Below, piece after piece: positions 3,211-62,099 of a DNA stretch of 64,000 nt. The stretch is from Frankia casuarinae (GTDB lineage: Bacteria; Actinomycetota; Actinomycetes; Frankiales; Frankiaceae). The notes below the pieces were generated by a model. That model searched no databases. It was not told the origin of the DNA and saw only the letters and a list, made by a program, of their open reading frames with translations. Both the position numbers and the translations under genes were made by a program. The stretch's first letter is position 1. Every line of letters begins with the position of its first letter. The DNA is taken from the NCBI RefSeq assembly GCF_000013345.1, contig NC_007777.1, positions 2,356,001 through 2,420,000 on the forward strand, written 5' to 3'.

Positions 3211-3284
3211 GAACGTGACGTGTCGGAGAACGCCGATCGACGACTTCCCGTGACCTTGATGGATGCGCGACCCGAGCGAACGTG

Positions 3285-4184: not shown

Positions 4185-4220
4185 GAACCGCCCCGGGCTC
4201 TTGAGAGCCCGGGGCGGTTC
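4185..4220 (-). terminator. Perfect 16-bp hairpin terminator of ctaD
   Basis: Arms 4185-4200 and 4205-4220 are perfectly complementary (GAACCGCCCCGGGCTC) around a TTGA loop. It sits 24 bp past the ctaD stop codon. There is no clear T-tract, as is common for actinobacterial terminators. Confidence 0.85.
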
Positions 4221-4243
4221 ACCCGCCCACGTGAGCCGCGTTC

Positions 4244-16663: not shown

Positions 16664-16705
16664 CCCCCGTTGTCGATCCCCCGTTGTCGATCCCCCGTTG
16701 TCGCG
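16664..16705. repeat. 14-bp tandem repeat, three copies
   Basis: CCCCCGTTGTCGAT occurs at 16664-16677 and 16678-16691. A third copy, with its last two bases changed, is at 16692-16705. The array ends 9 bp before the Shine-Dalgarno sequence of the ABC ATPase gene, so it must be in the 5' leader or promoter. Confidence 0.95.
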
Positions 16706-16727
16706 ACACCCCACGGAAGGAAGACGG

Positions 16728-17807
16728 ATGACAGCCATGCCCGCGGTCCAGGCCGGTGGTCTGGTCAAGAGATTCGGCGATTTTCACGCCGTCGACCACA
16801 TCGATCTCGAGGTGCACCACGGCGAGATCTTCGGCGTGCTCGGGCCCAACGGCGCCGGCAAGACGACGATGCTGAAGATGCTGGCCACGCTGTTGGCGAT
16901 CGACGACGGCCGGGCCGAGATCTTCGGCGTCGACGTCGCCGCCCAGCCGCACCGGGTCCGTCAGCTCATCGGCGTGACCGGCCAGTACGCCTCCGTGGAC
17001 GAGGACCTCACCGCCACCGAGAACCTGTGGCTGTTCGGCCGGCTCCAGGGCCTGCGCTCGGCTGACGCGCGCGCCACCGCGCGCCGGCTGCTGGAGCAGT
17101 TCGGTCTCGAGGAGGCCGCCGAACGACAGATCTCGGCGTTCTCCGGCGGGATGCGCCGCCGCCTCGATCTTGCCGCGTCCCTCATCACCCGGCCACCGTT
17201 GATCTTCCTGGACGAGCCGACGACCGGCCTCGACCCGCGTACCCGCGGCCAGATGTGGGACACCATCCGCGAGCTCGTCAACGACGGCTGCACCGTCCTG
17301 CTCACCACGCAGTACCTGGACGAGGCCGACCAGCTCGCCGACCGGGTCTGCGTGATCGACCACGGGCGCAAGGTCGCCGAGGGCACGCCGGACGAGCTCA
17401 AGACCCAGGTCGGCGACTCGACGCTGCAGCTTCAGCTCGCCCCCGGCGCTGACCAGGAGCGCGCCCGCGAGGTGGTGCTGCGGGTGCTCGGCGAGGAGCC
17501 GGTCACCACGCCCGAGTCCGGCCGGCTCAACGTCCCGCTCGACGTCGCCGACCGGGCCGCCGACGTGCTGATCGCGCTGCGCGGGGCCGCCGTCGCGATC
17601 GCCTCGGTCAGTGTCGCCAAACCGACCCTCGACGAGGTCTTCTTCGCCCTCACCGGCCACGGCGCCGGTCCCGGCCACGGCGGCCCGGGCGACGCCGGCG
17701 ACCCGGGCGACGCCGGCGACCCGCAGACCGCCGGCGGCCCGACCGGAGCGGTACCCGACCAGGACGCGACCGGCCCCGACGACCACGCCACGGAGGTAAC
17801 TCGATGA
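16728..17807 (+). CDS. ABC transporter ATP-binding protein, DrrA type
   Basis: This 359-aa cytoplasmic ATPase belongs to a two-gene exporter of the daunorubicin-resistance (DrrAB) class. It has Walker A GPNGAGKTT near residues 40-48, the signature FSGGMRRRLDLA, Walker B LIFLDEPTTGLDP near 157, and the H-loop-bearing TTQYLDEAD. The C-terminal DUF4162-like region ends in a Gly/Asp/Pro-rich tail containing GDAGDPGDAGDP repeats. ATG 16728 follows GGAAGG; an in-frame ATG at 16698 lies in the tandem repeats. Its stop overlaps the permease start by 4 nt (ATGA), so the two are translationally coupled. Confidence 0.9.
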   Translation: MTAMPAVQAGGLVKRFGDFHAVDHIDLEVHHGEIFGVLGPNGAGKTTMLKMLATLLAIDDGRAEIFGVDVAAQPHRVRQLIGVTGQYASVDEDLTATENLWLFGRLQGLRSADARATARRLLEQFGLEEAAERQISAFSGGMRRRLDLAASLITRPPLIFLDEPTTGLDPRTRGQMWDTIRELVNDGCTVLLTTQYLDEADQLADRVCVIDHGRKVAEGTPDELKTQVGDSTLQLQLAPGADQERAREVVLRVLGEEPVTTPESGRLNVPLDVADRAADVLIALRGAAVAIASVSVAKPTLDEVFFALTGHGAGPGHGGPGDAGDPGDAGDPQTAGGPTGAVPDQDATGPDDHATEVTR

Positions 17808-18673
17808 ACACCGTTCTCGCCGGGCCGTCGGCCGGGCCGGCCGCAGGCGCGCCGCGGCCGGCCTCGGCCGTCGACCCGGCAGCCGCCGTTGCCCGTACCC
17901 GGGCCCGCGCCGGGGTGGGGGACACCCTTACCCAGAGCTTCGCGATGGCCTGGCGAGCGCTGAAGAAGATGCGCCGCAACCCGGAACAGTTCTTCGACGT
18001 GGCGCTCCAGCCGCTGCTGTTCACCGCGATGTTCGCCTACGTGTTCGGCGGCGCGATCTCCGGCGACGTCCACAGCTACCTGCCGCTGCTCATCCCCGGC
18101 ATCGTCGCCCAGACCGTGCTCACCACCTGCATGGCCACCGGTACGCAGCTGCGGGAGGACATGGACAAGGGGGTCTTCGACCGGTTCCGGTCCCTGCCGA
18201 TGTCCCGGATCGCGCCGCTGGCCGGGCCGATGATCGCCGACCTGGTCCGCTACCTGATCGCGGCGAGCCTGACCTACCTGATGGGCCTGATCCTCGGCTA
18301 CCGGCCCGGCGGCGGCGTGCCCGGCGTGCTCGGCGCGATCGTGCTCGCGGTCCTGACCGGCTGGGCGATCGCGTGGGCGTTCACCTGGATCGGCACGGTC
18401 GCCCGCAGCGCCCGCAGCGTGCAGGGAATCTCGATGATGATCCTGTTTCCGCTGACCTTCCTGTCCAACGCGTTCGTGCCGGCGAAGACGCTGCCGGGCT
18501 GGCTGGAGACCTTCACCAGGGTCAATCCGGTGTCACACCTGGTCTCCGCCACGCGGGACCTGGCCAACAACGGCGTGCTCACCGGGCAGGTCGGCTGGAC
18601 GCTGCTCACCGGTCTCGCCGTGATCGTGATCTTCCTGCCGATGTCGGTCGTCAGCTACAAGCGGCACCTGTAG
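17804..18673 (+). CDS. ABC-2 type permease, DrrB type
   Basis: This 289-aa membrane partner of the preceding ATPase has a roughly 35-residue cytoplasmic Ala/Pro-rich N-terminus followed by six hydrophobic segments. Typical DrrB features are RNPEQFFDVALQPLLFT, REDMDKGVFDRFRSLPMSR (the coupling-helix region) and FLSNAFVPAKTLPGWLETF near the end. With the ATPase it would export a hydrophobic compound or lipid. Its last 141 bp are also read on the opposite strand by the end of the SARP-like regulator. Confidence 0.9.
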   Translation: MNTVLAGPSAGPAAGAPRPASAVDPAAAVARTRARAGVGDTLTQSFAMAWRALKKMRRNPEQFFDVALQPLLFTAMFAYVFGGAISGDVHSYLPLLIPGIVAQTVLTTCMATGTQLREDMDKGVFDRFRSLPMSRIAPLAGPMIADLVRYLIAASLTYLMGLILGYRPGGGVPGVLGAIVLAVLTGWAIAWAFTWIGTVARSARSVQGISMMILFPLTFLSNAFVPAKTLPGWLETFTRVNPVSHLVSATRDLANNGVLTGQVGWTLLTGLAVIVIFLPMSVVSYKRHL

Positions 18674-30760: not shown

Positions 30761-30845
30761 GTCCGGGTGGCGGAATGGCAGACGCGCTAGCTTGAGGTGC
30801 TAGTGCCCTTTAACGGGCGTGGGGGTTCAAGTCCCCCCTCGGACA
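30761..30845 (+). tRNA. tRNA-Leu (GAG anticodon)
   Basis: This 85-nt tRNA has acceptor arms GTCCGGG and CTCGGAC, a D-loop with GGAATGGCAG, an anticodon stem CTAGC/GCTAG around loop TTGAGGT (anticodon GAG, codon CUC), a long variable arm and the T-arm GGGGGTTCAAGTCCCCC. Discriminator A is at 30845. CCA is not encoded. The long variable arm marks it as class II. Confidence 0.95.
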
Positions 30846-31256
30846 CTCTCGTTCGTACATGATCCCTTGAGGCTTGGCCTCGGCGATCACTCGGTGGGCT
30901 CCTGGTTCGTAGGTGAGTTGCAGGCCGAGTTGGGTGTAGATCTCGGCTTTATCGGCCGGGTCGGCTTCGGTGAGAACGGCGACGATGTCGCCCACGGCGG
31001 TGACCATGTCGTGGATCTCCTGTTCGGTCATGGGGGCTGCGCCGTCCGGGTCGAGGCCGGCGCGGGCGGCGTGGGCGTTGATGTGGTTCGCGGCCTGCGT
31101 CTGGGTCCAGCCGCGGGCGTGGCGATGGGCGGCGCGGGGGCGGTAGTGGTAGCGGCGGGCGAACTCGATCGCGATCTCGTCGTGACTCATCCCGACCGCG
31201 CGCATCCGCGCCCGCAACTCGTCCTGCTCTACCCGCTGGCTTGGCTTGGCCGTCAC
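30810..31256 (-). pseudogene. XRE-like N-terminus fused to serine-integrase C-terminus, reading into tRNA-Leu
   Basis: The first 75 residues (ARMRAVGMSHDEIAIEFARR, then RPRAAHRHARGWTQTQAANH) match the N-terminus of actinobacterial XRE/TPR regulators. From about MTEQEIHDM the protein matches the C-terminal tail of large serine recombinases (VLTEADPADKAEIYTQLGLQ, then CPRGDLNPHA). That last motif is the translation of the tRNA 3' half on the opposite strand. Neither protein is complete, so this is a recombination chimera. It marks the end of an element that integrated at the tRNA gene. Confidence 0.75.
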
Positions 31257-31388
31257 GACGGGCTAGATCCCCTCGGAAATCCGGTGGTCGATCTTCCGGT
31301 GGTTCCTGACTGGAACCATTCTCACGGTAGTCCTTCTGTCACGGACCGAGCGGTACGGGATGACGTCGGTCCTCGGCCGACCTGTTGT

Positions 31389-32540
31389 TCAGCTTGTCGC
31401 TGTTGTGCACTCGCAGTGCCTGGCGTGGCGTCCGAGACATCCACGTAGCTGATCTTCGGCGAACTTCACCGTCTCCATCAAATCGCCGTACAGCGATTCC
31501 GGGATGCTTCCGGCATCGAGCCCGGCGGCGCGGAAGACATCGGCCAGGGTTTGGCGCTGCGTCGTCGTCATCGACTCCCGGAGGCGGTGCGCGAGCGTGT
31601 CGCGGGCCGTGTACGCGTCCTTGAACGTACCTGCGATCAGCGCCCGGCGTAGTACGTCGATGCGCGGATGGTCGTGGCCGTCGGCGAGGTCGAGCGCGAT
31701 CATGCCTGCTCGGGCACGGAAGACCATGGTCGAGAGGTCGGGCTGCCGCATCAGGGTGAGCGCGGTGGCGAGGAGCGGGGCGATCTGCGGGCCGGTGTCG
31801 GCGCCAGCCTGTCGCAGACAGTGCACCCGCAGGATTGTTTGGATCGCCTGTTCCCACGGTTCGGGGGTGGCGCTCTGGTCGACCAGCGCTGCTGCCTGCT
31901 CGGTGTGCCCGGCCTGGGCGAGTGCCAGGACGGTCGCCTGTCGGCCGTCGAGCAGTCGGCGGCCGACTCCGCGGTGGGCCGCGGCTTGTTCGGCGGCTTC
32001 GTGCCAGCGCCCGGCCCGTGCCAGTGCCCGGACTCCGTCCGCCAGGAGCGCCGTCCAGGTCAGGGTGCGCATGGTCCGATGGTCGTCGGAGGCGCAGGTG
32101 ACGTTGTGGAGACTGACGGACCGTCCGTCGATCAGTGCGCTGGTCTGCGTGCGCGCGGCCTCGTGCAGGGCCTGGAGGATCGCGTGAGCGCGGTTGCCGT
32201 CACCATCGCGGATCAGTTGGCGCGGGAGGTTGAGCACCGGTTGGAGGGCGAGTTCGGCGGCTGAGGCGGGCAGGGGCCGCGCCTGATCGAACAGCGTGTG
32301 TTGGCGCCAGCACAGGTCTTGGGCGAGGTCTGGTTGTCCGCAGTCGGAGGCGATCAGCGCCGCCTTGTTGCAGACTTCGGCCGCTCGGAGGAGCGGGAGA
32401 CCGTCCGATGTCCGTGCGGCCAGGTCGTGCAGCTGTCTGACTCGGTCTTCGAGGGGGAGGCCGGGTGGTCGGGGGCGTTGGACCAGCGGGAACCAGGCGA
32501 GCAGGTTCTCGTCGGCCGGGTCTGTTCCGACGTTCGTCAT
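31389..32540 (-). CDS. TPR-like protein of the FxLD lanthipeptide cluster
   Basis: This 383-aa, almost all-helical protein has repeated Ala/Leu-rich helix pairs of TPR type (AALIASDCGQPDLAQDLCW; LADGVRALARAGRWHEAAEQ; ALAQAGHTEQAAALVDQ). It resembles the C-terminal parts of XRE/TPR regulators but has no helix-turn-helix. Its ATG overlaps the stop of the preceding SpaB_C-like gene (ATGA), so it is the last gene of the lanthipeptide operon. A scaffolding or regulatory role is inferred. Confidence 0.6.
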   Translation of the reverse strand: MTNVGTDPADENLLAWFPLVQRPRPPGLPLEDRVRQLHDLAARTSDGLPLLRAAEVCNKAALIASDCGQPDLAQDLCWRQHTLFDQARPLPASAAELALQPVLNLPRQLIRDGDGNRAHAILQALHEAARTQTSALIDGRSVSLHNVTCASDDHRTMRTLTWTALLADGVRALARAGRWHEAAEQAAAHRGVGRRLLDGRQATVLALAQAGHTEQAAALVDQSATPEPWEQAIQTILRVHCLRQAGADTGPQIAPLLATALTLMRQPDLSTMVFRARAGMIALDLADGHDHPRIDVLRRALIAGTFKDAYTARDTLAHRLRESMTTTQRQTLADVFRAAGLDAGSIPESLYGDLMETVKFAEDQLRGCLGRHARHCECTTATS

Positions 32541-33382
32541 GCCGGTTCCCGATCGTGCGGCTGGTGATCGGAGGCGGGGTCGTGCCCGAACACGACGGTC
32601 TTGGCGGTGTGCGCGAGGACGGCTTGCGCCGTGTGGGGAAGGCCGTGCCGGTTCCAGGCGAAGATGATGTGGTGGGCGAGGACGGCGCGTAGGCCGCGGC
32701 GTAGCCGGCCGTCGGTGGCCAGGGCGGCCAGTTCGGTGCCGGCGGCGGCGAAGTCGCTGGTCCAATCGGTGAAGGCCGGCGGCAGGGTGTCCTTGGCCAG
32801 GCTGTCGGTGTCGATGCTCATCAGGCGCCGCAGGCCGTCACGCAGGGTGCGGAGCCTGTCGTCGGGGGTGCGCTCAGGTGGTTGCCGGTGCTCGGCGACT
32901 CGCGCCCACACGTCTCCTTCCTCGTACCAGTCGAGCCCGGCGGCGCGTAGCAGGTGCGAGCACAGCAGGACCGACAGTTCACGGCGGCGCCGGTCGGCCG
33001 GTTTGTGGCTGGTGCTGTTCAGGTAGGTGAGCAGGTGTCGGCTGTCGAGGTGGAAGAGCCGGTGGGCGGTGTCCATGCCTTCGGCGCCGCCGAAGGCATG
33101 GCTTTCTGGTTCGTAGAGGGTGGACGTGGCGTCCTCGATGCGGCGTGTCTCCCGGAGATCGGCGAGACGGGTGTGGATGTACGCCTTGGCCTCTCCTGTC
33201 GTCTGGCGGGGCAGGTAGCGGATGCGCCAGCAGGGCGCCTTGCGTACGAAGAACCAGGAGGTGATGAGCCCGTCGGTCTCGGCGGTGTCCAGCAGAGGGG
33301 CGAGGTGGTCCACGGCGGTGCCCTCGGCGTTCGCCCAGTCGGGGAAGGTGACGTTGACCTGGTGCCAGGTGCGGGTGTCCAT
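32537..33382 (-). CDS. Thiopeptide-type bacteriocin biosynthesis protein (stand-alone SpaB_C/elimination domain)
   Basis: This 281-aa protein matches the SpaB_C domain: it opens WHQVNVTFPDWANAEGTAVD, then GLITSWFFVRKAPCWRIRYL and a C-terminal AHHIIFAWNRHGLPHTAQA. In split LanB systems this domain removes glutamate from glutamylated Ser/Thr to give dehydroamino acids. Here the upstream LanB already carries its own C-terminal domain of this family, so this is an additional copy. It lies 12 bp downstream of lanC and overlaps the TPR gene. Confidence 0.85.
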   Translation of the reverse strand: MDTRTWHQVNVTFPDWANAEGTAVDHLAPLLDTAETDGLITSWFFVRKAPCWRIRYLPRQTTGEAKAYIHTRLADLRETRRIEDATSTLYEPESHAFGGAEGMDTAHRLFHLDSRHLLTYLNSTSHKPADRRRRELSVLLCSHLLRAAGLDWYEEGDVWARVAEHRQPPERTPDDRLRTLRDGLRRLMSIDTDSLAKDTLPPAFTDWTSDFAAAGTELAALATDGRLRRGLRAVLAHHIIFAWNRHGLPHTAQAVLAHTAKTVVFGHDPASDHQPHDREPA

Positions 33383-33394
33383 GTCGGCTCCTGA

Positions 33395-34633
33395 TCAGGC
33401 CAGCAGGAGGAAGGCGTCCCAGCCCGACGTCGGGGCGGCGCCGGTGCCGGCGGTGTGCAGGGCGAGGGCGGCGCCGGCGGCGCCGTCGAGAAGTTCGGGG
33501 TCGCGCACGGTTGTGCCCATCTGTGCGATCAGCCTGGCTGACAGGCCGGGGAGTTCGGCGGTGAGCTGGGGATGGTGGGAGTCGGCCGCCATGCGCCAGG
33601 CGGACTGGAGTAGCCCGGCGGTGCCGTGACACAGGCCGATCTCGGTGAGCTGGTCGAGTTGCGCCTCATCGCGAAGTGCCGCGAGGAGCGCGTTCTCGGC
33701 GGCTTGCTGGCGTGCGGTGTCGCGCAGGGCCATGCCGGCGAGCTGTTGGGCGCGGGCGGTGCCGCTGACGCCGTAACACCAGGAGGGGCGGGGCCGCAGG
33801 GTTGCGGCGACCTTGCCTTCACGGACCTGGCGGAGGGTGATGAATCCGGGCCACCAGGGGCCGGTGTCGCCGTGCTGGCACCAGCGGTCGGTCCAGGCGC
33901 AGATCCGTGCGATCGCGTCGTCGGCGCCACGGACCGGCAGGCCGCGCAGGTGGGCCAGGGCAAGCAGGGCGAGGACGGCGCTGATGCCGTGCGCGAGGCC
34001 GACGTTGCCGTGTCCTTGGGGGAATTCGGGGCTGGGTTCGCCGTTGGGTGCAGAGTCCGTCCACCAGGGTGGGAGGTCGTCTCTTCCGGCCAGTGGTTCG
34101 GTCAGTCTGACCAGGTACGACAGCAGTTCGCCGGTGATCGGGTGATCGGGGTGGCGGCGCAGGTGGTAGACGCCGAGTCCGGTCAGGCCCCGGATCAGGT
34201 CGAACTCCTTCATCGCGGGCCGCCGGCTCTGTTCGATGCGTGTGTGGGCCGCGGCGAGTCGGGTGCGGGTCATGGCGACGACGGCCTGATCCAGATGGGC
34301 GAGGGCACGGTGGTACCGGCCTGATGGTCCGGCTGCGGTGTGCAGGGTGAAGGCCAGGGCCGGAGCGCCCAGGTACAGGCCCGCGTTGGCCGCCGCGGTC
34401 AGGGCGTCGGACGCGGCGGCGGACAGCCAGGCGTGCACGGTGCTCCAGTCGCCGTACCCGGAGCGGGCACGTTCGATGTGCAGCAGGGCGATGCCCGCCG
34501 CGCCGCCGGCGAGCGACTGCGGCCACGCCCTTCCCCCGGTCGGTCGGTGGGCGGCCCAGGCGGTGTGCGGGTCGGCTAGTGCTTCGGCAACAGTGTTCGC
34601 GGCGGCGAGCGCGTCCGGATCGGAGCTGGTCAT
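33395..34633 (-). CDS. lanC: Lanthionine synthetase C-like cyclase
   Basis: This 412-aa LanC-family alpha,alpha-barrel protein is the zinc enzyme that adds Cys thiols to dehydrated Ser/Thr to make (methyl)lanthionine. The zinc ligands are visible: WCYGVSG near residue 283 (Cys) and GLCHGTAG near 331 (Cys-His), with the repeat-type GLAHGISAVLALLAL before them. Its ATG overlaps the stop of the dehydratase gene by 4 nt, so dehydratase and cyclase are translationally coupled. Confidence 0.9.
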   Translation of the reverse strand: MTSSDPDALAAANTVAEALADPHTAWAAHRPTGGRAWPQSLAGGAAGIALLHIERARSGYGDWSTVHAWLSAAASDALTAAANAGLYLGAPALAFTLHTAAGPSGRYHRALAHLDQAVVAMTRTRLAAAHTRIEQSRRPAMKEFDLIRGLTGLGVYHLRRHPDHPITGELLSYLVRLTEPLAGRDDLPPWWTDSAPNGEPSPEFPQGHGNVGLAHGISAVLALLALAHLRGLPVRGADDAIARICAWTDRWCQHGDTGPWWPGFITLRQVREGKVAATLRPRPSWCYGVSGTARAQQLAGMALRDTARQQAAENALLAALRDEAQLDQLTEIGLCHGTAGLLQSAWRMAADSHHPQLTAELPGLSARLIAQMGTTVRDPELLDGAAGAALALHTAGTGAAPTSGWDAFLLLA

Positions 34634-37600
34634 GATGGGTTCCTCGTGCGCGCGGTCCAGCTCAGTGCGGCGGCGCGAGCCAGGTGCAGGCAGGCGCGTT
34701 CCCCGGCCAGGCTGACTCCGGCCATGCGGACATGGTGGAGATGCAGAAGATCAGGCAGCAGGGAGGTGGGGGCCTCCGCGCGGGTTTCCTGGAGGACGTG
34801 TCGGTAGGCGGTGAGTGCCTCGCGCCGGTGCGCCCAGCAGGAGAGGACGTGCTCGCCTCCGGGCTGTGCGGCCAGCGCGCGTGGGTCGGCCGGGTTCGCC
34901 AGGGCGACGGTCTGCTGGTACAGCGCGCGGGCTGGGGCGGACGGCTCCGTCCGGGTGTGGCTGATGAGCCAGCTCGTCGCCTCGGCGGTGTCGCCGATCA
35001 GGCCGGTCACGATGGCGAGCATGCTGGCGGCGGTCAGCGCGCGACGGTCGGGCCCGCTCTTCTCCCTGGAGGCGGCGAGCTGGGCGAGGGCCGCCGCTGA
35101 GTCGGCGGCGAAGTACGCCTCCGCGGCGTCCATCGCGGCGGTGCCCCCGAAGCGTGAGGTCTCGGGGAAGTAGGTGTCCCACTGCGCGCGGGAGATCAGG
35201 CCGGCGCGGCGGAGCCGCTGGGTCCAGGCACCGATCCGGTCGGCGGTCGGCGCCACACCGTCGGCGGTGACCGCGAGCCGCAGGCGCAGATGGTCGTCGG
35301 GGTCGTGGTAGCGCAGGAACCACCAGCGCGCCTCGCCCGCGGCCTGCTGCCCGTTCAGCTCGTGGACGAGGTGCGGCAGATGGCGGGTGAGGATGTCGTC
35401 CTGGCAACCGAGGCCGGCGTAGATCTTGACTGAGAACCGTGCGTCGCAGCCCGGAAGATGCCCATGATCGCGGCCAACGACCTGCGCCCGGCTGAACCAG
35501 CCCGGTGTCGCCGCCGGCGCGGCGACCGCTGCCAGGGGGACGACGATCTCGTGGGCATGCCCGCTGACCCAGCCGGCCGCGTCGGTGTCGGGGGCGGCGC
35601 GCAGCAGCGCGGCGCCGGAGCGGTCGAGGTGGGAGCGCAGCAGTACCCGGTGGGCCGGCTCAGACAGGTCCAGTCCGATGCGCTGGTCACCGTCGCCGAG
35701 GTAGACCGCCGAGGGGAGGTTGACCTGCTCCCGCCAGCTGGCCAGGGCACGGTCCCACTCCGTCCAGCCGGCCGCGGAGCCGGGCAGGTCCGCGGTCCCC
35801 AGCAGCCAGCGCGCTGGTGAGAGGACTGTTCGTCCATGCCGCAGCGCCGGCAGGAACGGTAGCTGGGCCGCGACCCCCCAGTCGAAGGGGGCGCAGGGAA
35901 CGCTCAGCGCGGCCGGCGCCTCGGCGAGGAAACGCGCCAGCGGATGCGCGCGTCGCACCGGCTCCACCGCGTTGAGCGCCACCGGTTCCACCAGTTGGCG
36001 GCGGGAGAGCGAGAGCAGATAGATCCGGTGCACATCGGCCGTCACCACGATGTCGTCCAGAGGCAGCGAGTCCCCGTCCTCGCTGTCGTCGTACTCGCCG
36101 AGGGAGAGCCGGTGCGCCATGATCTGGGGGGCGCGTCCCACCGTGTCGGTGTTCGTGTAGCGAGCGGGCGCGGAGATCTGCACGCTCAGCGCGTCGCGGC
36201 TCGCGGTGGGAAGACCCGCGTACAGCGCGCGCATCCGCGCACTGTCCTTCGCGTCGAAGAGGTCGAGGAGTCGTCCGGTCGTGGTGCCGGCTCTGCGTGA
36301 CACCCCGACGACCGCGAGGGTGAACGCGCCATCGTCGAGCGAGCGGGTGCTCGTGGCGTGGACGCGCAGGGTGAGTTCCGTGGTGGGCTGAACGTGGGCG
36401 TCCTGGTCGACGACCGTAAGGTCGCTGATCATCCTGTCGTCGAGGACGATCTCCCGTTCGCGGCGCAGCGCGGCGTTCTGCGCCAACGCCAACAGCTTCG
36501 CGTCCCGATCGGTGAACGTCACGCCCGCGGGTGCGGGACTGCCGGCGTAGCCGGCGGGATAACCCAGTCCGATCTCGGGGTCGACCGCGTCGAAAACGGG
36601 AACCAGAGCGCACGGCCCGTACCGTTCGAGGAACCGGCCATGCCAGGCGTCCCAGCCGGAGCTGAGCGTCGAGCGCCGCGCCAGGCGCACCAGCACGCCC
36701 GCCGCCGCTGCGGCCTCGACCGCGACCGCGCGGGGCACAGCCAGCGCCCAGTCCATCCGCAGATCAACCCGGAGTGCCGGCTCCGCCGAAGGGTGGACCT
36801 CAGCCATGTCCTCGCCGAGGCGCTCGCGGCTGCTGCGCGCGACGGTCCAACTCGACGCGCTGTCGTGGCTCCGCAGCCCATCGACAATCCCGTTCAGGCG
36901 TTCGGCGACCCAGGCCGCCTCGACGGTGACCGGCCCGCCATTTAGGGTCGTCTGGAGCACACCCACGACATGACGGAGAGGATCGCTCGCCGTCATCGGA
37001 GGCCGCAGGTTCGTGAGCAGGAACCGCTGCGCCACCAGATCGGCCAGAAGTCTGTCGACGACGTCGGCAGGGACCGGAGCGAACTCGGACGCGAGCCTGG
37101 CCGCGAGGTCGGAGAACCGCACCGAGCGGCGGCCGATACCCATCGCGGCGCGGACCGGTGCGTGCGCCCGCACCTGCACGCGCGTAGGAACACCGTCGGT
37201 GCCTCCTGCGGCACGGTGCTCCAGCACCAGATGGCCGTCCCGCTCGAACACGAGGTTGTTCGCCACCACATCCAGCCGCGCTCGGACGACCGGATCGGCT
37301 TCCAACCGGTCGACCACCGCGCAGAGCCAGCCAGCCTCGACCCGCGCGACGGCACGGTGCGCCACGCCTGCGCGCACCGAGGCGTGGTCAGCGACACGCA
37401 CCGGCGCGACCCCCGCGAACAGGCCGAACGGTGTCGCCCGTCCCGACGCGCGAAGCCGGTAACGCATCACCGACAGCACTGCCCGCCGCACCCCGGCCTG
37501 GGGCACTTGGCGTCCGTCGCGGATCTCCCGAACGCGGCGAGCGAGCACAGGGCTGGCCTGCTCCAGCGCCATCTCGAAGGCGCGATTCTGCATCACCTCC

Positions 37601-37725
37601 CGTAACCAGAGGCGCCAGGACTCTGGTGTGGCCGCCGGTCCGACCAGGTCGGGCCATCGCTCGGCCACGTCCACGGGCGGGTTCACCGCGGCACGCACCA
37701 CCAGGGAGTCGAGATGCTGATACAC
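34630..37725 (-). CDS. lanB: Lantibiotic dehydratase (LanB, full length)
   Basis: This 1031-aa class I dehydratase uses glutamyl-tRNA(Glu) to activate Ser/Thr of the precursor and then eliminates glutamate. The N-terminal Lant_dehydr_N region spans about residues 1-650 (RYRLRASGRATPFGLFAGVA is the hallmark). The C-terminal SpaB_C domain starts near SVKIYAGLGCQDD and includes ARWWFLRYHDPDDHLRLRL. The GTG start at 37725 follows GGAG. A strong hairpin lies between it and the precursor gene. It overlaps lanC. Confidence 0.92.
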   Translation of the reverse strand: MYQHLDSLVVRAAVNPPVDVAERWPDLVGPAATPESWRLWLREVMQNRAFEMALEQASPVLARRVREIRDGRQVPQAGVRRAVLSVMRYRLRASGRATPFGLFAGVAPVRVADHASVRAGVAHRAVARVEAGWLCAVVDRLEADPVVRARLDVVANNLVFERDGHLVLEHRAAGGTDGVPTRVQVRAHAPVRAAMGIGRRSVRFSDLAARLASEFAPVPADVVDRLLADLVAQRFLLTNLRPPMTASDPLRHVVGVLQTTLNGGPVTVEAAWVAERLNGIVDGLRSHDSASSWTVARSSRERLGEDMAEVHPSAEPALRVDLRMDWALAVPRAVAVEAAAAAGVLVRLARRSTLSSGWDAWHGRFLERYGPCALVPVFDAVDPEIGLGYPAGYAGSPAPAGVTFTDRDAKLLALAQNAALRREREIVLDDRMISDLTVVDQDAHVQPTTELTLRVHATSTRSLDDGAFTLAVVGVSRRAGTTTGRLLDLFDAKDSARMRALYAGLPTASRDALSVQISAPARYTNTDTVGRAPQIMAHRLSLGEYDDSEDGDSLPLDDIVVTADVHRIYLLSLSRRQLVEPVALNAVEPVRRAHPLARFLAEAPAALSVPCAPFDWGVAAQLPFLPALRHGRTVLSPARWLLGTADLPGSAAGWTEWDRALASWREQVNLPSAVYLGDGDQRIGLDLSEPAHRVLLRSHLDRSGAALLRAAPDTDAAGWVSGHAHEIVVPLAAVAAPAATPGWFSRAQVVGRDHGHLPGCDARFSVKIYAGLGCQDDILTRHLPHLVHELNGQQAAGEARWWFLRYHDPDDHLRLRLAVTADGVAPTADRIGAWTQRLRRAGLISRAQWDTYFPETSRFGGTAAMDAAEAYFAADSAAALAQLAASREKSGPDRRALTAASMLAIVTGLIGDTAEATSWLISHTRTEPSAPARALYQQTVALANPADPRALAAQPGGEHVLSCWAHRREALTAYRHVLQETRAEAPTSLLPDLLHLHHVRMAGVSLAGERACLHLARAAALSWTARTRNPS

Positions 37726-37743
37726 CAGCCGCTCCGTAGTCGG

Positions 37744-37786
37744 GCGGCGTCCGTCCGGCCGCCGAGGCCGGCCGTACGGACGCCGC
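37744..37786 (-). terminator. 18-bp stem-loop between precursor gene and lanB
   Basis: Arms 37744-37761 and 37769-37786 (GCGGCGTCCGT...GGCCG type) pair over 18 bp with one mismatch and a 7-nt loop. Such hairpins in RiPP operons act as partial terminators or processing sites that keep precursor mRNA above enzyme mRNA. Confidence 0.6.
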
Positions 37787-37810
37787 GTTCTCAGGTCGTC
37801 GGGGCGCTGG

Positions 37811-38005
37811 TTACGGGCAGGTGGTCGAGCAGGCCGTCTCGCACGTCGTGCCGCAGCCGTCGTCGGTCATCCGGATGAGCCGGTCAGCGGCCGGTCCGGA
37901 CTCGACGATCGAGATGTCCAGGTCCCATGTGGTGAAGTCCTCCTCCTGGTCTCGTCCCGCCTGCGGGGGCACGGCCAACACCGGGTCATCGAGCTGGATG
38001 GACAT
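37811..38005 (-). CDS. FxLD-family lanthipeptide precursor
   Basis: This 64-aa precursor peptide has an acidic leader with F24...WDLDIS (residues 27-32), a W-variant of the FxLD recognition motif that gives the family its name. The core is about residues 46-64, beginning TDDGCGTTC and ending in Pro. Cysteines at 51, 55, 59 and 63 are spaced every four residues, and seven Ser/Thr sit between or before them, enough for four (methyl)lanthionine rings. AGGAGG lies 5 nt before ATG 38005. An Asp-Asp-Gly at 48-50 is a candidate target of the neighbouring PCMT-like enzyme. Confidence 0.9.
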   Translation of the reverse strand: MSIQLDDPVLAVPPQAGRDQEEDFTTWDLDISIVESGPAADRLIRMTDDGCGTTCETACSTTCP

Positions 38006-38075
38006 GAAGACCTCCTGGGTTGTGATGGTGGTGGTGCATTCCGGCTCCCGAGCATCCGTTCGGGAGCGCGGAAAC

Positions 38076-39302
38076 TCAGGGCCAGCGGACAGCGACAGCG
38101 CCGTGCCGTTTCGGCACCAGCCCCACGGACGGCGCCGGCGTCCCCGCGGCCTTCGGGACGTATCGGATGTGGGCGGCACCGGAACGGCGGTGATCGCTGG
38201 CCCACCGGCGGAGCAGTTCCACGTAGTGCTCGGCGACGCGATCGGCGTCGGGACCGTGCGCGACGACGCCGCTCTCGAATCCGCCGGTCTTCTCGTTCGG
38301 GCGCTTGGTGCGGTAGGCGAAACTGCCACCGCTGACCAGCGTGGGCACACCTCTGGCGGCCGAGGGCGCGAAGCGGCCGTTCTGGACCTGCGTCTCGTCC
38401 ACATGCAGGTGCGCGACCTGGGCCAGATTCGTGACGAGGAAGAACTCCAACTCGTCAGGAAGATCGAAGGCCGCTCCGGACCAGCGTTCCAGCCTCGGCG
38501 TGGCCAGCGCGTCGCGCAGCCCCTCGACGTCGAACTCCTGGGACGGGTCGTCGACCCGAAGCACGACCTCGTCGGTAATAGGGACGAGCCTTTCGCGGAA
38601 CGTCCCGATGCCCTGCATCGGGACGAATCCGCACAGGCGATAGCTGCGGCTGACCAGACCGACGTCACCGTCCTCGTCGACCCGGTCGAACGCGATCGAC
38701 CGGGTCAGCCCTCGTAGCCGGAGCGGCACAACGAGCCTGCCGCCGTTCGTGAGCTGCTCCTGCCAGGCTGGTGGGATGTCCCAGGCCCCTGCGGTCACGA
38801 TAATCCGGTCGTAGGGTGCTTTTTCGGGTACGCCGGCCTCGGCGTCGGCCGCCACGACTTCAACATTTCGATAGCCGGCCGCGTCCAGACAGGCGCGGGC
38901 CCGGCTCACGATCTCCTGGTCGATGTCGACGGACGTCACCGAGCCTCCGTCGCCGACCATCTCCTGGATGAGGGCGGCGTTGTAGCCGCCCGAGCCAACC
39001 TCCAGGACACGCATTCCCGGTTCAAGTTCGGCCTGCTCCAACATGACCGCCTGAATGTGCGCGGCGGACAGCGAGCTGAGCGCCGCACCATTCCCATCGC
39101 GTTTAATCACAAGTGCTTTGTTTGCGGCGTAGACCGCCTCCAGCGGTTCGTCGGGTGCGAAAAGGTGCCGAGGCACCCTGCCCACAGCCGCAGCCACCTG
39201 CCCAGTCTTGATCGCGTCCCCCGTGGTGCGAAGCTCGTCCACCATCGCGGCACGCAACGTGGCCGCACTGTCGGTGGCGCTCGAATCTTGGACTGAAGTC
39301 AT
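38076..39302 (-). CDS. FxLD-system methyltransferase (protein-L-isoaspartate O-methyltransferase-like)
   Basis: This 408-aa SAM-dependent methyltransferase has a PCMT fold in the first 220 residues (RVPRHLFAPDEPLEAVY is PCMT-typical; the SAM loop VLEVGSGGYNAAL is near residue 99). The roughly 180-residue C-terminal extension is characteristic of the FxLD-system branch. PCMT relatives in other lanthipeptide clusters methylate Asp to form succinimide/isoaspartate. ATG 39302 has AAGGTG upstream. The frame stays open to 39848 without homology. It is the first gene of the cluster, 70 bp before the precursor. Confidence 0.88.
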   Translation of the reverse strand: MTSVQDSSATDSAATLRAAMVDELRTTGDAIKTGQVAAAVGRVPRHLFAPDEPLEAVYAANKALVIKRDGNGAALSSLSAAHIQAVMLEQAELEPGMRVLEVGSGGYNAALIQEMVGDGGSVTSVDIDQEIVSRARACLDAAGYRNVEVVAADAEAGVPEKAPYDRIIVTAGAWDIPPAWQEQLTNGGRLVVPLRLRGLTRSIAFDRVDEDGDVGLVSRSYRLCGFVPMQGIGTFRERLVPITDEVVLRVDDPSQEFDVEGLRDALATPRLERWSGAAFDLPDELEFFLVTNLAQVAHLHVDETQVQNGRFAPSAARGVPTLVSGGSFAYRTKRPNEKTGGFESGVVAHGPDADRVAEHYVELLRRWASDHRRSGAAHIRYVPKAAGTPAPSVGLVPKRHGAVAVRWP

Positions 39303-40438
39303 TTTTCGACACCTTAATGAGACGGGAAATGGCAGTCTAGGTCGCTCCTCTGACCCAGAATATGGAAGTGGCGATGAGCTAGGTGAAGGGAATGCTCCGA
39401 TGATGTGTCGGCGGCAATGTCGAGTACGGCCGGGTGAGTACGACGCGACTGCGCCCCTGTCCAGCGCCAGCTCTTCCAGACGCCGACTCTCACGAATGGT
39501 TCGATCGGGAAGATGTACCGCGCCGGGGAAGATGCGGCTGGCCCCGGCCGCACCGGCGGATCTGGTCGGCCATCCGCTTCGCGGCCACGGCCACGCTGGG
39601 TCCGTAGGTAGTGCAGGTGATGTGCTCGAAGCCGGTACCGGCCCCATCGACCCGACGCGGCTCCCCGGTCGGCCAGGGCTGGCCGTCGGCGAACGCCGGT
39701 CGCCCCAGCGCTGGGGGGGAACGGCGAGACGCGCGCACGCGGACCGGGCGCGAACGCGACACAAGGACATGATCATCTCGCTTCCCTCGGGTGGTACGGC
39801 CCGCGCACCGATCAAGATCGGTGGATGCCGCGTATGGCGCCACACCACGATGGCTGGAGCCCGGGGGGCAAGTCATTCCCACCACGACGAAGCTTCTCTT
39901 CGGCTCCCGAGAGACACCTGACCTGCGCAGACAGTGGTGTCAGGGTGCATCTATCCGGCGCGATCATGCCGATTCGTTCGGCAGGCCCGCCGGCCTCGGC
40001 CTCGATCACCTGTCTGGGACCACGGCGACCTGAACCTGCTACCGCGTTCCGACGGCGTCTGGTCCGGCTCCACCGACGATGCGGCTCCTTCGCGCGACCC
40101 GCGGCGCCTCTCTCCCGGCTGATCCTGAGCGGACGGCTGTCGGTGACAGACGGCTACGGACTCGGCCGGCAGCGGGAGGCTGCGGCCTCCGAAGCTGATC
40201 GACTGCCGGTGTCTGCCGCGTCAGGGCAGGCACGCGCTGCCCTCGGCTGCGGCGGCTGGGTGTGCGCTTGCGCCTTGGTCTGGCGACATGTGCCGGGCGG
40301 CTACGGCGTTGGGCCAGGGGCTCCGCCGACCCGCGTCCGGACTGGCGGCAGGTCGCCTCTCCTTCGCAGTGTCCGCGACATCGACGATCACACGGAAGCG
40401 CCGGCCGCACAGGAAAGTCCTTTTGAGACGATTGCGCC
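39303..40438. other. Intergenic region, no confident gene
   Basis: This 1136-bp stretch upstream of the lanthipeptide operon has several long open frames on both strands, but none with recognisable domains. A minus-strand segment near 39600-39660 (HITCTTYGPSVAVAAKRMAD) looks protein-like and may be a decayed gene. The promoter of the lanthipeptide operon must lie at its left end. Confidence 0.4.
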
Positions 40439-41988: not shown

Positions 41989-42825
41989 TCAGACCGGCGG
42001 GTCACGCCAGGTCGGGGTGGCCGCCCCGGTCAGCCGGCGGGCCATCACCTCCACCATCGACCAGTGGATCATCGCTACCGCGCTGGCCGGTTTCGCCTCG
42101 TAGTCCCGGGCCAGCCGCCGGTGCAGCATCAACGTGCCCAGGGTCTGCTCAACCCGCCACCGCTTCGGGAGCGGGGTGAACCCCCGCGCTCCCGGCTCGC
42201 GTCCGACGACCTCGACATCGATGCCCAGACCGGCGCCGTGCTCGACGACGGTGGTCTTGAACCCGGCGTCCACCCACGCCTTGCGCACCGGCGGGGCGGC
42301 GGCGGCGACCCGGTCCAGCAGGGCGGTGCCGATGGTGTTGTCGTGCACGCTGGCCGCGACCACGACCACGGCGATGAGCAGTCCCAACGTGTCGACGGCG
42401 ATCCCGCGTTTACGGCCCGGGCTTTTCTTTCCCGGGTCCAGGCCGGTCGTGCCCTTCGGGGCGTTGGTGGAGGACCGGACGGTCTGGGAGTCCAGCACGA
42501 CCGCGCTCGGGTCGGCTTTCCTGCGGTGGTGCTCACGGACCAGCCAGCGCAGCAGGTCGTGGATCGTCTCGGTGGTGCCGTCGTCGCGCCACTGGCCGAA
42601 GTAGTAGTACACCGCGGACGTCGGGGGCAGGTCGTGGGGCAGGTAGCGCCACTGGCAGCCGGTCCGGGCCTGGTAGAGGACCGCGTTCACGATCTCCCGC
42701 ATGTCGTAGCCACCCTCGTGCCCGCTAGCCGAGGGATGCCGGGCCTTCCACGCGGTGAGGACCGGGCGGATCAGGTCCCACGCCTCATCGGACAGGTCAC
42801 TGGGGTACGGCTTGCGTTCTGCCAT
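41989..42825 (-). CDS. IS5-family transposase
   Basis: This 278-aa DDE transposase has an N-terminal DUF4096 domain (YPSDLSDEAWDLIRPVLTAW, TGCQWRYLPHDLPP). The catalytic Asp residues lie in VVLDSQTVRSS and WVDAGFK, and the Glu in KRWRVEQTLGTLMLHRRL. Uninterrupted frame and intact element ends suggest it is functional. GGAAGAC precedes ATG 42825. Confidence 0.92.
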   Translation of the reverse strand: MAERKPYPSDLSDEAWDLIRPVLTAWKARHPSASGHEGGYDMREIVNAVLYQARTGCQWRYLPHDLPPTSAVYYYFGQWRDDGTTETIHDLLRWLVREHHRRKADPSAVVLDSQTVRSSTNAPKGTTGLDPGKKSPGRKRGIAVDTLGLLIAVVVVAASVHDNTIGTALLDRVAAAAPPVRKAWVDAGFKTTVVEHGAGLGIDVEVVGREPGARGFTPLPKRWRVEQTLGTLMLHRRLARDYEAKPASAVAMIHWSMVEVMARRLTGAATPTWRDPPV

Positions 42826-58192: not shown

Positions 58193-60112
58193 GTACGTAT
58201 TCGGAAATCCCGTTGGGGCATGATCGTGGGCGGCGTGACCGTGGGGCACTCCGCTGGGGTCTCGGGGGTCGGGGTCAGCCGGGAGGCTGTTGCCAGGTGG
58301 TGAGGTCCTCGGGGCTGGCGGCCCAGGGCAGGAACCGGTCGAGGTCGGCGCCGGTCGGCGGCTTGCCGCCGGCCCGGCCGCAGGCGTCGAGGTAGTTCTC
58401 CAGGTAGGTCAGCAGGTTCAGGTTGTGCATCGCGGCGGTCGCGGTGACCGTGAAGATCGTGGCGGCGTGGCGGGCGGTGTCCTCGGTGCGGGAGCCGCCG
58501 GCGTTGCGCCGGGTCACGACCGGGCCCCTGATCGCCCTTTCCGCCGGGTTGTTGTCCATGCCGATCATGGGGTAGTCGCGGTGGGCGACCAGCCCGTCCC
58601 ATTCCCGGTCCAGGGTCGCGAGCGCCTTGCGCGCGGGTTCCTGCAGGCCGGGCGAGGCCGTCTGCTCGCGGCGAACCGTGTCGATCACGGTGATCGCGGT
58701 GTCCCAGCCGGCGTACGCGGCGGCGAGCCGCTTCTCGGTGGCCGGCGACGGGGCCGCGGCGGCGGTGTGCCAGGCGGCGGCGAGCTCGCCGTGCGCGGTG
58801 TAGAGCGCGCGGATCCGCTCGACCCACTGGCGGGCCCAGATCCCGAGCTGGGCGGGGTTCGCGTCGCCGGCCCGCACGAAGTACCGCCGCGCGTGCGCCC
58901 AGCAGTACAGGTTGACCAGGCCATCGGCGCGGCGGCCGGCGGAGACGTACACGGTGTAGAAGTCCGACGACAGCACGAGGCGGCGCGGTCCGCCGTCGGC
59001 GTCGTCGGTCAGCTGGCCGCTGTCCGGGTCGAGGCCGACGTGTTCGGCGAGCACCGCCGTCGAGCGGGTCGCGTCCATCACGAAACAGACGCTGTCCGGC
59101 CCCAGGAACACCCACAGCCACCAGCGGGCCGGCCCGCCGCCGCCGGTCGGGGTGAACACCCGCCAGGTCGTCTCGTCGGCGTGCAGGTGCCACGACCCCC
59201 GCGACCGCCCGACGATCTGCTCGGCGAGTGGGGCGAGCAGGCCCGCGACCTGGGCGCACGCCCCGGTCAGCGTCGCCGGCGAGAGCTGGGCGCCGTGCCG
59301 GGCCAACCCGGTGACCAGCGAGTTCTGCGAACGGCCCGCGACATAGCGCTCCACGATCAGCATCGCGAGGAACCGGTGCGTGAACAGGCCCTTCCCGATC
59401 GCCTTCGACGGTCCCGGCGCGGTCACCGTCAACGACCCGCCACAGCGGCAGCCCCGCCGATACCGGCGCCGCCTCGACACCCGAACCCGCACCGTCACCA
59501 GCCAGTCGAGCTGCTCGACGACATGCTCGCCCCACGGCGTGAACGGCTGCCCACACGACAGGCAGCCATAGCCCCCGCCCTCGAAGTCGCAGTCGACCTC
59601 GTCGCGGGACAGATGGTCGTAGCTCCGCCGGCCCGAGCGCGCGCCCGGCCCCCGCCGCCGGCCTGCCGACCCGGCGGCCTCGCCCCGCGCCCCGTCGCCA
59701 CAACCGTCCCCGCCATCCGGCGAACCCACGGCCGGCGACCCGCCGCACTCCCGTTCCGACGACCGGCCGAACAGCATCCGCCGCAACGTCGCCAGCTCCG
59801 CCTGCAACGCCTCGAGCTGGAGACGCAGCTCCACCACCTCGGCCTCACGCGTCGCCTCCCGCGCGACCAGCCCGGCGATGTCCGTCAACAGCTCCGCGAC
59901 CCGGGCCCGCAGCCAGGCGTTCTCCGCCAGCAGCGCCGCGCCCTCGGCAACCTCACCGCTCGCGGCAGCGCCCGCCCCCGACTCGACAACCGTCACGCAC
60001 CGCAGCAAACCACCCCGACCGGCAGAACATCACCCACCACGACCATCAGGCCACACCCAGCCCCGAAGGCCGTCACCCCAAAAGATCAACAACGGGACTT
60101 CCGAATACGTAC
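58193..60112 (-). mobile_element. IS66-type insertion sequence (1920 bp)
   Basis: Imperfect terminal inverted repeats start GTACGTATTCGGAA, then R, then TCCCGTTG (22 of 23 match). GGCTGACC is present on both sides (58185-58192 and 60113-60120), a perfect 8-bp target duplication as expected for IS66. It carries only the large transposase (TnpC-like) gene, without tnpA and tnpB, as in the reduced ISBst12-like branch. Confidence 0.92.
58275..60008 (-). CDS. IS66-family transposase (TnpC-like)
   Basis: This 577-aa protein has a coiled-coil leucine-zipper-like N-terminus (LRARVAELLTDIAGLVAREA), an RMLFGRSSER signature, a zinc-finger domain (GCLSCGQPFTPWGEHVVEQL; RRGCRCGG) and the DDE_Tnp_IS66 catalytic core: HLHADETTWRVF (first Asp), VLSSDFYTVY (second Asp), CWAHARRYF and MDNNPAERAIRGPV (Glu). 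A C-terminal IS66_C region ends with TYLENYLDACGRAGG. Frame and ends are intact. Confidence 0.93.
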   Translation of the reverse strand: MLRCVTVVESGAGAAASGEVAEGAALLAENAWLRARVAELLTDIAGLVAREATREAEVVELRLQLEALQAELATLRRMLFGRSSERECGGSPAVGSPDGGDGCGDGARGEAAGSAGRRRGPGARSGRRSYDHLSRDEVDCDFEGGGYGCLSCGQPFTPWGEHVVEQLDWLVTVRVRVSRRRRYRRGCRCGGSLTVTAPGPSKAIGKGLFTHRFLAMLIVERYVAGRSQNSLVTGLARHGAQLSPATLTGACAQVAGLLAPLAEQIVGRSRGSWHLHADETTWRVFTPTGGGGPARWWLWVFLGPDSVCFVMDATRSTAVLAEHVGLDPDSGQLTDDADGGPRRLVLSSDFYTVYVSAGRRADGLVNLYCWAHARRYFVRAGDANPAQLGIWARQWVERIRALYTAHGELAAAWHTAAAAPSPATEKRLAAAYAGWDTAITVIDTVRREQTASPGLQEPARKALATLDREWDGLVAHRDYPMIGMDNNPAERAIRGPVVTRRNAGGSRTEDTARHAATIFTVTATAAMHNLNLLTYLENYLDACGRAGGKPPTGADLDRFLPWAASPEDLTTWQQPPG

Positions 60113-60464: not shown

Positions 60465-62099
60465 CAGGGTGACCCGCAAAGTCTGTTTGTGCAGGTAGAC
60501 GGTGTGAGACGGGGTGCGGGGGGCTGGGGCCGGTGGTGGTGTGAGGATCCGGGCCCGGCTGCTGTTTCGTCGCTGTGAGTAGCGCGTGTGAGGGTGGGTT
60601 CCGGCGCCGGCGGAAACGCCACCGATGACGTTCTGTGACAGCCGGTGGGGTGGGTGGGGCGGTGGGGCCGTGGGGTCCGGGGGAACAACGGCGGGCCACC
60701 ACGGTGAGGGTGGCTGCGGTGAGGCAACGGGGTCCCGGTAGGACGGGGATTGCCTAGATCACCAGCCGTAGGGAGCCCCGTTGCCGGTCCAGTCTCGCAT
60801 GCCCGTCACTCCCACCGATCTCGGACAGGCCGGGTCGGGGCAGCTGGTCCGGATGCGGCGGTCGCTGCGGGTCCTGGGGGCGCACGGCGGTGAGGTGCAG
60901 GGGCTCGCCGACGTACTCGCCGGGGTGCCTGACCCGCGGGACCCGCGAGGGATACGTCACCGGCTCCCGGTGATCCTGGGACTGTCCGCCGCAGCGGTCG
61001 CCGCGGGGGAGAAGTCGGTGGAGGAGATCGCGGCCTGGGCTGCGCACGCCCCGACGCAGGTCCTGACCGCTCTCGGGGCGCGGGTCCATCCGGTGACCGG
61101 GCAGCCGCAGGCACCGTCGGTGGACACGATGATCCGGGTCCTGTCCGCGGTGGACAGCTCGGCGCTGGCGAGGGCGGTCGGGATGTTCGCCGCGGCCCGC
61201 GCCCGCCAGGCCCGTGGTGGTGGGCGGCGGGTGGTCGCGGTCGACGGGAAGACCCTGCGTGGCGCGGCTGGGCCTGAGGGGCGGGCACCGCACCTGCTCG
61301 CGGTCGCCGAACACGGCACGGGTGTGGTGCTCGCCGAGCATGAGGTCGGCGCGAAGACGAACGAGGTCACCGCGTTCGCACCGCTGCTCCGCGAACTGCA
61401 TTCCCATGATCCGCTGGATGGGGTGGTGGTGACCGCTGATGCGTTGCACACGACCCGCGCCCACGCCGACCTGATCGTCACCGAGCTGGGAGCGCACTTC
61501 GTGTTCACGGTGAAGGCGAACACCCCGGCGTTGTCGGTCGACTGCCACCAGGCGACCGACTGGACGAAGATCCCGATCGGGCACAGCGCCGAGGGCAGGG
61601 CCCATGGACGGTTCGAACGACGCACCATCCAGCTGGCCCAGGCCAGCGAGGCGATCCGTGCCCGCTATCCCCATGCCCGCACCGTGGCGCGGATCCGCCG
61701 TCATGTCCGGCGGACCGTGACCACCGGCACGGGCCGGGCCCGGGTCACCCGGACGATCCCGAGCACTGTCACGGTCCACGTCCTGACGAGCCTCACCCTC
61801 GACGCGGTCACACCCGCTGATCTCGCGGGCTACGCCCGAGGGCATTGGACGATCGAGAACAAGGTCCACTGGGTGCGCGATGTGACGTTCCGTGAGGATG
61901 CCTCGCGGGTTCGGACCGGCCCACTGCCCCGCATCATGACCACACTCCGTAACCTGATCATCGGGCTGATTCGCCTCGCTGGCCATAACCGCATCGCCCC
62001 GACCATCCGCAGAATCCGACACGACAACGCCCTGCTCCTGGCCATCCTCACTCTCGACAACCCCGCTGACCTGCATCAATGACTTTGCGGGTCACCCTG
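60465..62099 (+). mobile_element. ISAs1-type insertion sequence (1635 bp)
   Basis: Perfect 19-bp inverted ends CAGGGTGACCCGCAAAGTC (60465-60483 and 62081-62099) flank the transposase gene. I find no matching 8-10 bp duplication outside the ends (left ...ACCGCAAACG, right ACCGCGGCCC...). The flanking DNA seems to have been rearranged after insertion. Confidence 0.9.
60781..62082 (+). CDS. ISAs1-family transposase
   Basis: This 433-aa DDE transposase begins with the DUF4338/DDE_Tnp_1-associated region (VPDPRDPRGIRHRLPVILGL). The catalytic triad lies in VVAVDGKTLRGA (first Asp), VVVTADALHTTRAH (second Asp) and GHWTIENKVHWVRDVTFRED (Glu). It ends ALLLAILTLDNPADLHQ, right at the inverted repeat. 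TTG 60781 has GGGAG 5 nt upstream; an ATG at 60799 has none. The frame is intact. Confidence 0.92.
   Translation: MPVQSRMPVTPTDLGQAGSGQLVRMRRSLRVLGAHGGEVQGLADVLAGVPDPRDPRGIRHRLPVILGLSAAAVAAGEKSVEEIAAWAAHAPTQVLTALGARVHPVTGQPQAPSVDTMIRVLSAVDSSALARAVGMFAAARARQARGGGRRVVAVDGKTLRGAAGPEGRAPHLLAVAEHGTGVVLAEHEVGAKTNEVTAFAPLLRELHSHDPLDGVVVTADALHTTRAHADLIVTELGAHFVFTVKANTPALSVDCHQATDWTKIPIGHSAEGRAHGRFERRTIQLAQASEAIRARYPHARTVARIRRHVRRTVTTGTGRARVTRTIPSTVTVHVLTSLTLDAVTPADLAGYARGHWTIENKVHWVRDVTFREDASRVRTGPLPRIMTTLRNLIIGLIRLAGHNRIAPTIRRIRHDNALLLAILTLDNPADLHQ

Follow-up and report, generated by a model that had tools for sequence, protein, structure and literature searches.

The six genes at positions 31389-39302 (minus strand) of the 64,000-nucleotide stretch of Frankia casuarinae DNA that we analyzed (contig NC_007777.1, positions 2,356,001 to 2,420,000; hereafter the window, with coordinates counted from its first letter) very likely form an operon whose product is an FxLD-type class I lanthipeptide, matured to a peptide that contains aspartimide or isoaspartate (isoAsp), or lanthimiditide. 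The original prediction, made from the letters of the window, had placed a complete FxLD-type cluster here, and all six genes are at the positions it gave; curated NCBI and Pfam models place five of them, with family scores well beyond chance. The family assignments come from these models; the chemistry proposed below we infer, step by step, from characterized relatives. The cluster is a well-formed, ordinary member of a known, abundant, and widespread actinobacterial type.

Gene content and predicted product

The genes run in the order methyltransferase, precursor, LanB, LanC, stand-alone SpaB_C protein, and TPR-like protein, an order found again in other clusters, and their packing fits the single operon that had been proposed, with 4-base overlaps between LanB and LanC and between the SpaB_C and TPR-like genes and a gap of 12 bases between LanC and SpaB_C. 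Every modifying enzyme named beforehand is present by NCBIfam and Pfam. The FxLD-system O-methyltransferase of the PIMT/PCMT family (FxlM/LanSA; 38076..39302) scores 539.7 bits against TIGR04364 (cut-off 320; E 4.2e-162), and its PF01135 domain covers residues 18-229 of 408, followed by a C-terminal extension of about 180 amino acids; a methyltransferase scoring above 100 bits also lies in the stretch of each of the 84 loci at which we could classify LanB (84/84). The LanB dehydratase (34630..37725; 1031 amino acids) has both a glutamylation domain (PF04738, residues 47-696; Lant_dehydr_N E 7.3e-210) and an elimination domain (PF14028, residues 765-1019), and it retains the equivalents of NisB R784, R786, E823, and R826 together with the C-terminal His-rich motif. 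The LanC cyclase (33395..34633; LANC_like, PF05147, E 2.1e-36 in the Pfam scan) shows, in alignment to NisC, the WCYG and CHG motifs that make up the zinc site. A LanB with both domains beside a separate LanC is the class I arrangement, and the two sequence marks of lanthimiditides, a TDDGC core and a PIMT C-terminal extension of more than 100 amino acids, are both found here. Against the copies in Parafrankia sp. EUN1f, the ratio of nonsynonymous to synonymous substitution rates (dN/dS) is below 1 for all six genes (0.157 to 0.694, from one pair and with no test against 1).

The precursor gene (37811..38005) encodes 64 amino acids matching the FxLD family TIGR04363 at 58.1 bits, well over the curated cut-off of 30 (E 6.4e-16). 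Counting on the translation places its cysteines at residues 51, 55, 59, and 63, as had been claimed, and the expected W variant of the leader motif is indeed there: WDLD at residues 27-30, with Trp replacing Phe of aromatic-x-Leu-Asp, ahead of the core TDDGCGTTCETACSTTCP. Read from the precursor segments, the W variant occurs in 7 of the 9 loci of the LanB clade to which the window belongs and in one other locus (L146), and on these sequences it is a lineage feature. The 30 bases upstream of the gene hold a Shine-Dalgarno sequence, AGGAGG (38011..38016), 5 bases before the ATG, and the precursor differs from its Parafrankia copy (L055) by 3 bases, 1 of them amino-acid changing (dN/dS of 0.157, calculated on those 3 only); for these two reasons the precursor looks translated.

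From residue 47 onward the precursor has 7 Thr/Ser and 4 Cys. The codons of T47-D48-D49-G50-C51 (37853..37867) form a TxDGC motif, which by analogy to OlvA would hold the first methyllanthionine ring and, in Asp49, the predicted methylation target. The pattern [TS].[DN].C is present in 91 of 95 precursor segments, with TDDGC as its commonest form (30), in line with reports that most PIMT-associated class I precursors from 1305 clusters have a TxDGC core (PMC13001092, PMC10787088). The same reports describe how an Asp is converted to aspartimide/isoAsp in the OlvA/OlvSA system of Streptomyces olivaceus NRRL B-3009. As the review describes it (PMC13001092), the Olv cluster is like ours in having a LanA with a conserved core Asp, a LanB, a LanC, and a PIMT-like methyltransferase, although it differs in host and peptide.

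In the pathway that we propose, the leader motif WDLDISIVES would dock on LanB, which would glutamylate core Thr/Ser residues from Glu-tRNA and then eliminate glutamate to give dehydroamino acids. LanC would link Cys51, 55, 59, and 63 into thioether rings, of which Thr47-Cys51 is the first, and only after cyclization would the PIMT-like methyltransferase esterify Asp49, which precedes Gly50, to give an aspartimide and mostly isoAsp. The stand-alone SpaB_C and TPR-like proteins would probably work on the same peptide as one accessory unit, and leader removal and export would be carried out by genes elsewhere in the genome.

Several points weigh against this reading. As the original prediction had noted, no transporter or protease is among the six cluster genes, so production is not assured. 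Ring topology past Thr47-Cys51 is not readable from the sequence, and the choice of Asp49 over Asp48 as the target draws on the following Gly and on the motif. Finally, no other gene of the operon reaches the dN/dS of the SpaB_C gene (0.694), a value that agrees with an auxiliary role for its product in this cluster.

Other FxLD precursors show variations of their own. Three different tandem precursors stand ahead of one LanB at L103 (16555-17196), and one LanB clade has short-core precursors (L044, 8796-9182; L050, 9010-9189; L073, 8767-8991) whose stretch from TxDxC on contains just two Cys and closes with the second of them (TDDGCDTVRGSNC and the like).

The stand-alone SpaB_C protein and its TPR-like partner

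The stand-alone SpaB_C (Lant_dehydr_C) protein (32537..33382, minus strand; 281 amino acids) matches PF14028 (E 3.3e-30 in the Pfam scan) and TIGR03891 (234.9 bits). It has Arg at the equivalent of NisB R786 and Ala96 at that of R826, so the NisB-type Arg pair is incomplete. For a counterpart of NisB H961 the two alignments disagree: in MAFFT its His237-His238 aligns with the His-His of LanB, whereas matching by the following Arg gives Ala instead (NisB being aligned to 846 only). The NisB mutants R786A, R826A, and H961A are reported to glutamylate but fail to eliminate (PMC4979651). A first set of sequences had Arg at the R826 equivalent in 38/38 LanB C-terminal domains versus 0/36 stand-alone SpaB_C proteins. 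After enlargement to 84 classifiable loci, all 68 stand-alone SpaB_C proteins keep Glu at E823 as well as Arg at R786, and none has Arg at R826 (Ala in 61, Thr in 4, Val in 3).

The LanBs of these loci fall into three kinds. At 58 loci both R786 and R826 are kept, which is our definition of an intact LanB (both equivalents Arg; the C-terminal end is unreadable in 5 of them, L038, L042, L050, L053, and L151, and L043 has Ser for His), and a stand-alone SpaB_C protein accompanies 43 of these, with 15 lacking it. At 16 loci LanB has lost R784, R786, and E823 and kept R826, losses that are reciprocal to those of SpaB_C, which is present in 16/16. At 9 more, LanB has no elimination domain (L117 is counted here on a partial LanB, which is absent from the tree), and SpaB_C is again always present (9/9), with Arg at R826 in none of these proteins. 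Apart from L061, which has an unclear LanB and no SpaB_C, a stand-alone SpaB_C protein is thus present wherever the elimination domain of LanB is defective or missing. Before the 84 were settled, eight truncated rows in seven loci were left out (L125 twice, L137, L138, L149, L150, L152, and L154); five loci gave no LanB row (L062, L108, L115, L116, and L130), and L061 was ambiguous.

A Fisher test of whether SpaB_C presence depends on LanB state gives p = 0.017, a value that we do not trust because the tree places LanBs of the second kind in a single clade and those of the third in one or two, so the losses are not independent events. The comparison accordingly amounts to two or three evolutionary events, which hint that the stand-alone SpaB_C protein takes part in elimination. 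We also considered whether SpaB_C carries a heavier selective load where LanB is defective, which was not borne out: the excess of its identity over that of the LanB N-domain was 0.030, 0.028, and 0.026 for intact, R786-lost, and domain-less LanBs, respectively. In defective LanBs, the conservation of the elimination domain is close to that of the N-domain.

The last gene of the operon (31389..32540, minus strand) encodes a TPR-like protein of 383 amino acids, which we list as the partner of SpaB_C. No Pfam or NCBIfam model matches the window protein itself, and the TPR label comes from its relatives: TPR_7 is matched by 5 of 18 aligned ones, at E 8.4e-5 in the best case. Among solved structures, a profile of 18 TPR-like proteins gave no match up to E = 1. 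AlphaFold models built on two-row alignments were too poor to use for either protein of the pair, with a mean predicted local distance difference test score of 46.5 for the TPR-like protein, modeled as all-helical, and 43.5 for SpaB_C. Annotated plasmid relatives are named "hypothetical protein"; no paper title on a TPR-like FxLD family stood among the matches listed, where titles only were considered, and the words tetratricopeptide and TPR are absent from the main text of the 2020 family survey by Walker (PMC7268733).

The TPR-like family was found in 21/197 genomes of the class (E up to 1e-8), and 12 of 15 stretches around its members hold an FxLD precursor and a LanB; of the other three, L108 has SpaB_C and TPR in one frame only, L115 is a lone fragment, and L116 is a 3.2-kb contig with pieces of methyltransferase, TPR, and SpaB_C genes. 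Among classified loci that had not been fetched for their TPR gene, the family accompanies SpaB_C in 34/55 and occurs in 0/15 without it, and over all 84 loci it is present in 47/68 with SpaB_C versus 1/16 without (L114), an association that shares the kinship weakness of the LanB comparison. Outside the 84, L062, which has no LanB, holds a methyltransferase, a precursor, and a TPR-like gene without SpaB_C. SpaB_C and TPR-like sequences stand in a single stop-free frame twice, at L108 and at L036, the 3.93 Mb cluster of the same Frankia genome.

One reading, which we hold to be possible but short of probable, is that SpaB_C works in glutamate elimination across FxLD clusters, as the sole eliminase where the LanB domain is missing and jointly with LanB where its site is partly lost. 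The invariant R786 and E823 equivalents (68/68) and the presence of SpaB_C in all clusters of the R784/R786/E823-lost and domain-less kinds, compared with 43/58 of the intact ones, argue for it, and there are known cases of split LanBs whose elimination domain is a separate protein (PMC7268733). On the other side stand the missing Arg at R826, a position at which NisB R826A blocks elimination (PMC4979651), the non-independence of the events behind the p value, and the observation that a defective LanB goes with no greater conservation of SpaB_C. The window LanB is itself of the intact kind and keeps the elimination residues examined, so in this cluster the SpaB_C/TPR-like unit is probably auxiliary.

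It is also possible, if somewhat less likely, that SpaB_C resembles its thiopeptide relatives in catalyzing another modification and that LanB carries out all elimination. This would fit the loss of the R826 equivalent in 68/68 SpaB_C proteins and the finding that the sole solved structure matched by the window SpaB_C alone is TsrE (E 0.0042), which has Trp, not Arg, at the R826 position in the alignment; a modification other than elimination is also raised as a possibility in PMC7268733. It would, however, leave 25/84 clusters without any SpaB_C-type domain that combines R786, E823, and R826. A profile of the SpaB_C proteins also scores best against a LanB (entry 5ehk), which speaks against the idea of another modification. 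We take this structure to be MibB.

A variant of the elimination role that we hold to be improbable is a site shared by two proteins, in which SpaB_C, held by the TPR-like protein, would give the R784/R786/E823 part and the C-terminal domain of LanB would give the R826 part. Such sharing would let one LanB clade lose its own R784/R786/E823 part, and it would make this a class I dehydratase with an elimination site assembled in trans.

Some loci with related genes lie apart from these patterns. A further stand-alone SpaB_C protein of the first set, encoded on the opposite strand of L066 (2777-3712), carries His at R786, Asp at E823, and Pro at R826 and lies too far from LanB to be counted in the 68. 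Elsewhere in the Frankia genome (C1:5338399-5340386), a stand-alone SpaB_C gene lies beside an FxLD methyltransferase that scores over the cut-off (442 bits), and neither a LanB nor an FxLD precursor was matched in the vicinity. The Embleya linear plasmid NZ_CP108786.1 (L118; 4780-6816 and 7933-9984) carries an FxLD cluster in which the 678-amino-acid LanB has no elimination domain and the methyltransferase shares its frame with SpaB_C.

Spread, transfer, and flanking genes

FxLD precursors over the cut-off are present in 27/35 genomes of the family, and in a sample of the class they were found in 57/393 genomes (26/35 of the same family and 31/358 outside it). The Frankia genome itself has four such precursors and four full LanBs; a further LanB at 4.22 Mb is broken, and 5.01 Mb gives a distant match to part of a LanB. 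At the 3.93 Mb FxLD cluster (L036, 3921400-3939400 of this genome), the LanC gene is interrupted by about 1.65 kb at about 2993-4646, and the open frame within the interruption looks to us like an ISAs1-type transposase.

The same six genes as in the window occur on Parafrankia sp. EUN1f contig NZ_ADGX01000049.1 (L074, the contig that also gave L055), and of seven related loci that we aligned this is the nearest, with 91.3% DNA identity over 31025-39997 (an alignment of 8,986 columns). A same-genus locus (L047) is 73.4% identical to the window, and a 3,001-base pyruvate:ferredoxin oxidoreductase stretch near the cluster is 82% identical between the two genomes. On this one housekeeping yardstick, transfer between the genera is the simplest reading.

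The DNA identity stops at 31025, within the remnant of a downstream helix-turn-helix gene (30810..31256, minus strand) that is shortened and fused to a different tail. In Parafrankia the corresponding open frame is 586 amino acids long (L074, 10222-11982), and its product falls below the cut-off of HTH_31 (24.3 of 27 bits). The tail that replaces its end has no Pfam match and presumably resembles the end of a site-specific recombinase; tRNA-Leu(gag) (30761-30846) overlaps the end of the truncated frame. Given this overlap and the recombinase-like tail, the site may be an old integration site. Upstream of the cluster, the window holds transposase genes of IS4/5-like, IS66, and DDE_Tnp_1 types at 41989-42825, 58275-60008, and 60781-62082.

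A Pfam scan of 28 flanking open reading frames found two MFS transporters, one ABC pair, and no protease family. The ABC transporters beside two plasmid FxLD clusters (L117 and L118), used as phmmer queries, matched in 5 other stretches of 95 (L063, L071, L132, L103, and L043), a count that is a lower bound given two queries only and some short stretches; the 95 include both sources, and L103 and L043 are cut by the stretch end. With a matching transporter in only 7/95 FxLD stretches, sources included, the absence of one here is not special. A DrrA-type ABC ATPase with an ABC-2 permease lies at 16698-18673 on the plus strand, about 13 kb past the cluster end, and with its weak match to these queries (71 bits) is a possible but unsupported exporter. 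It is quite unlikely that the cluster is a nonfunctional leftover of horizontal transfer, as the regulator cut at 31025 next to tRNA-Leu and the lack of a matching ABC transporter beside it might suggest, since none of the six frames is broken, each has a dN/dS below 1 in the comparison with Parafrankia, and only 7/95 FxLD stretches gave a matching transporter in the search with two queries.

Relation to described clusters and significance

Marsh et al. (2010; PMC3091789) reported five lantibiotic clusters in Frankia sp. CcI3, a strain that NCBI taxonomy places under Frankia casuarinae, clusters I to III with a lanA and IV and V without, and assigned Francci3_2033 (LanB) and Francci3_2032 (LanC) to cluster IV and 3530 and 3531 to cluster V. 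From strand order (the LanC tag is lower than that of LanB, as on the minus strand), position, and elimination of the others, we infer that the window cluster is cluster IV; Table 2 of that study lists it without a lanA, whereas the window has a precursor at 37811-38005 that would be its lanA. A 2013 survey (PMC3848822) describes two or four such clusters in all Frankia genomes but one and gives a precursor logo drawn from twelve clusters, so the window precursor may already be included in that logo. Families I 1-4 of the class I lanthipeptides in the 2020 survey (PMC7268733) resemble the window cluster in being actinobacterial and in having a conserved core Asp and a PF01135 methyltransferase, and that survey also reports class I clusters in which an extra elimination-domain protein accompanies a full LanB.

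The cluster itself adds one member to a large, already catalogued family and calls for no special attention. The part that goes beyond the existing catalogue and is worth an experiment is the pair of SpaB_C and TPR-like accessory proteins. With the comparison presented here, the function of the extra elimination-domain protein in class I clusters, on which the 2020 survey raised only a possibility, becomes open to testing, and so does the question of why the stand-alone SpaB_C protein travels with an unnamed TPR-like protein.

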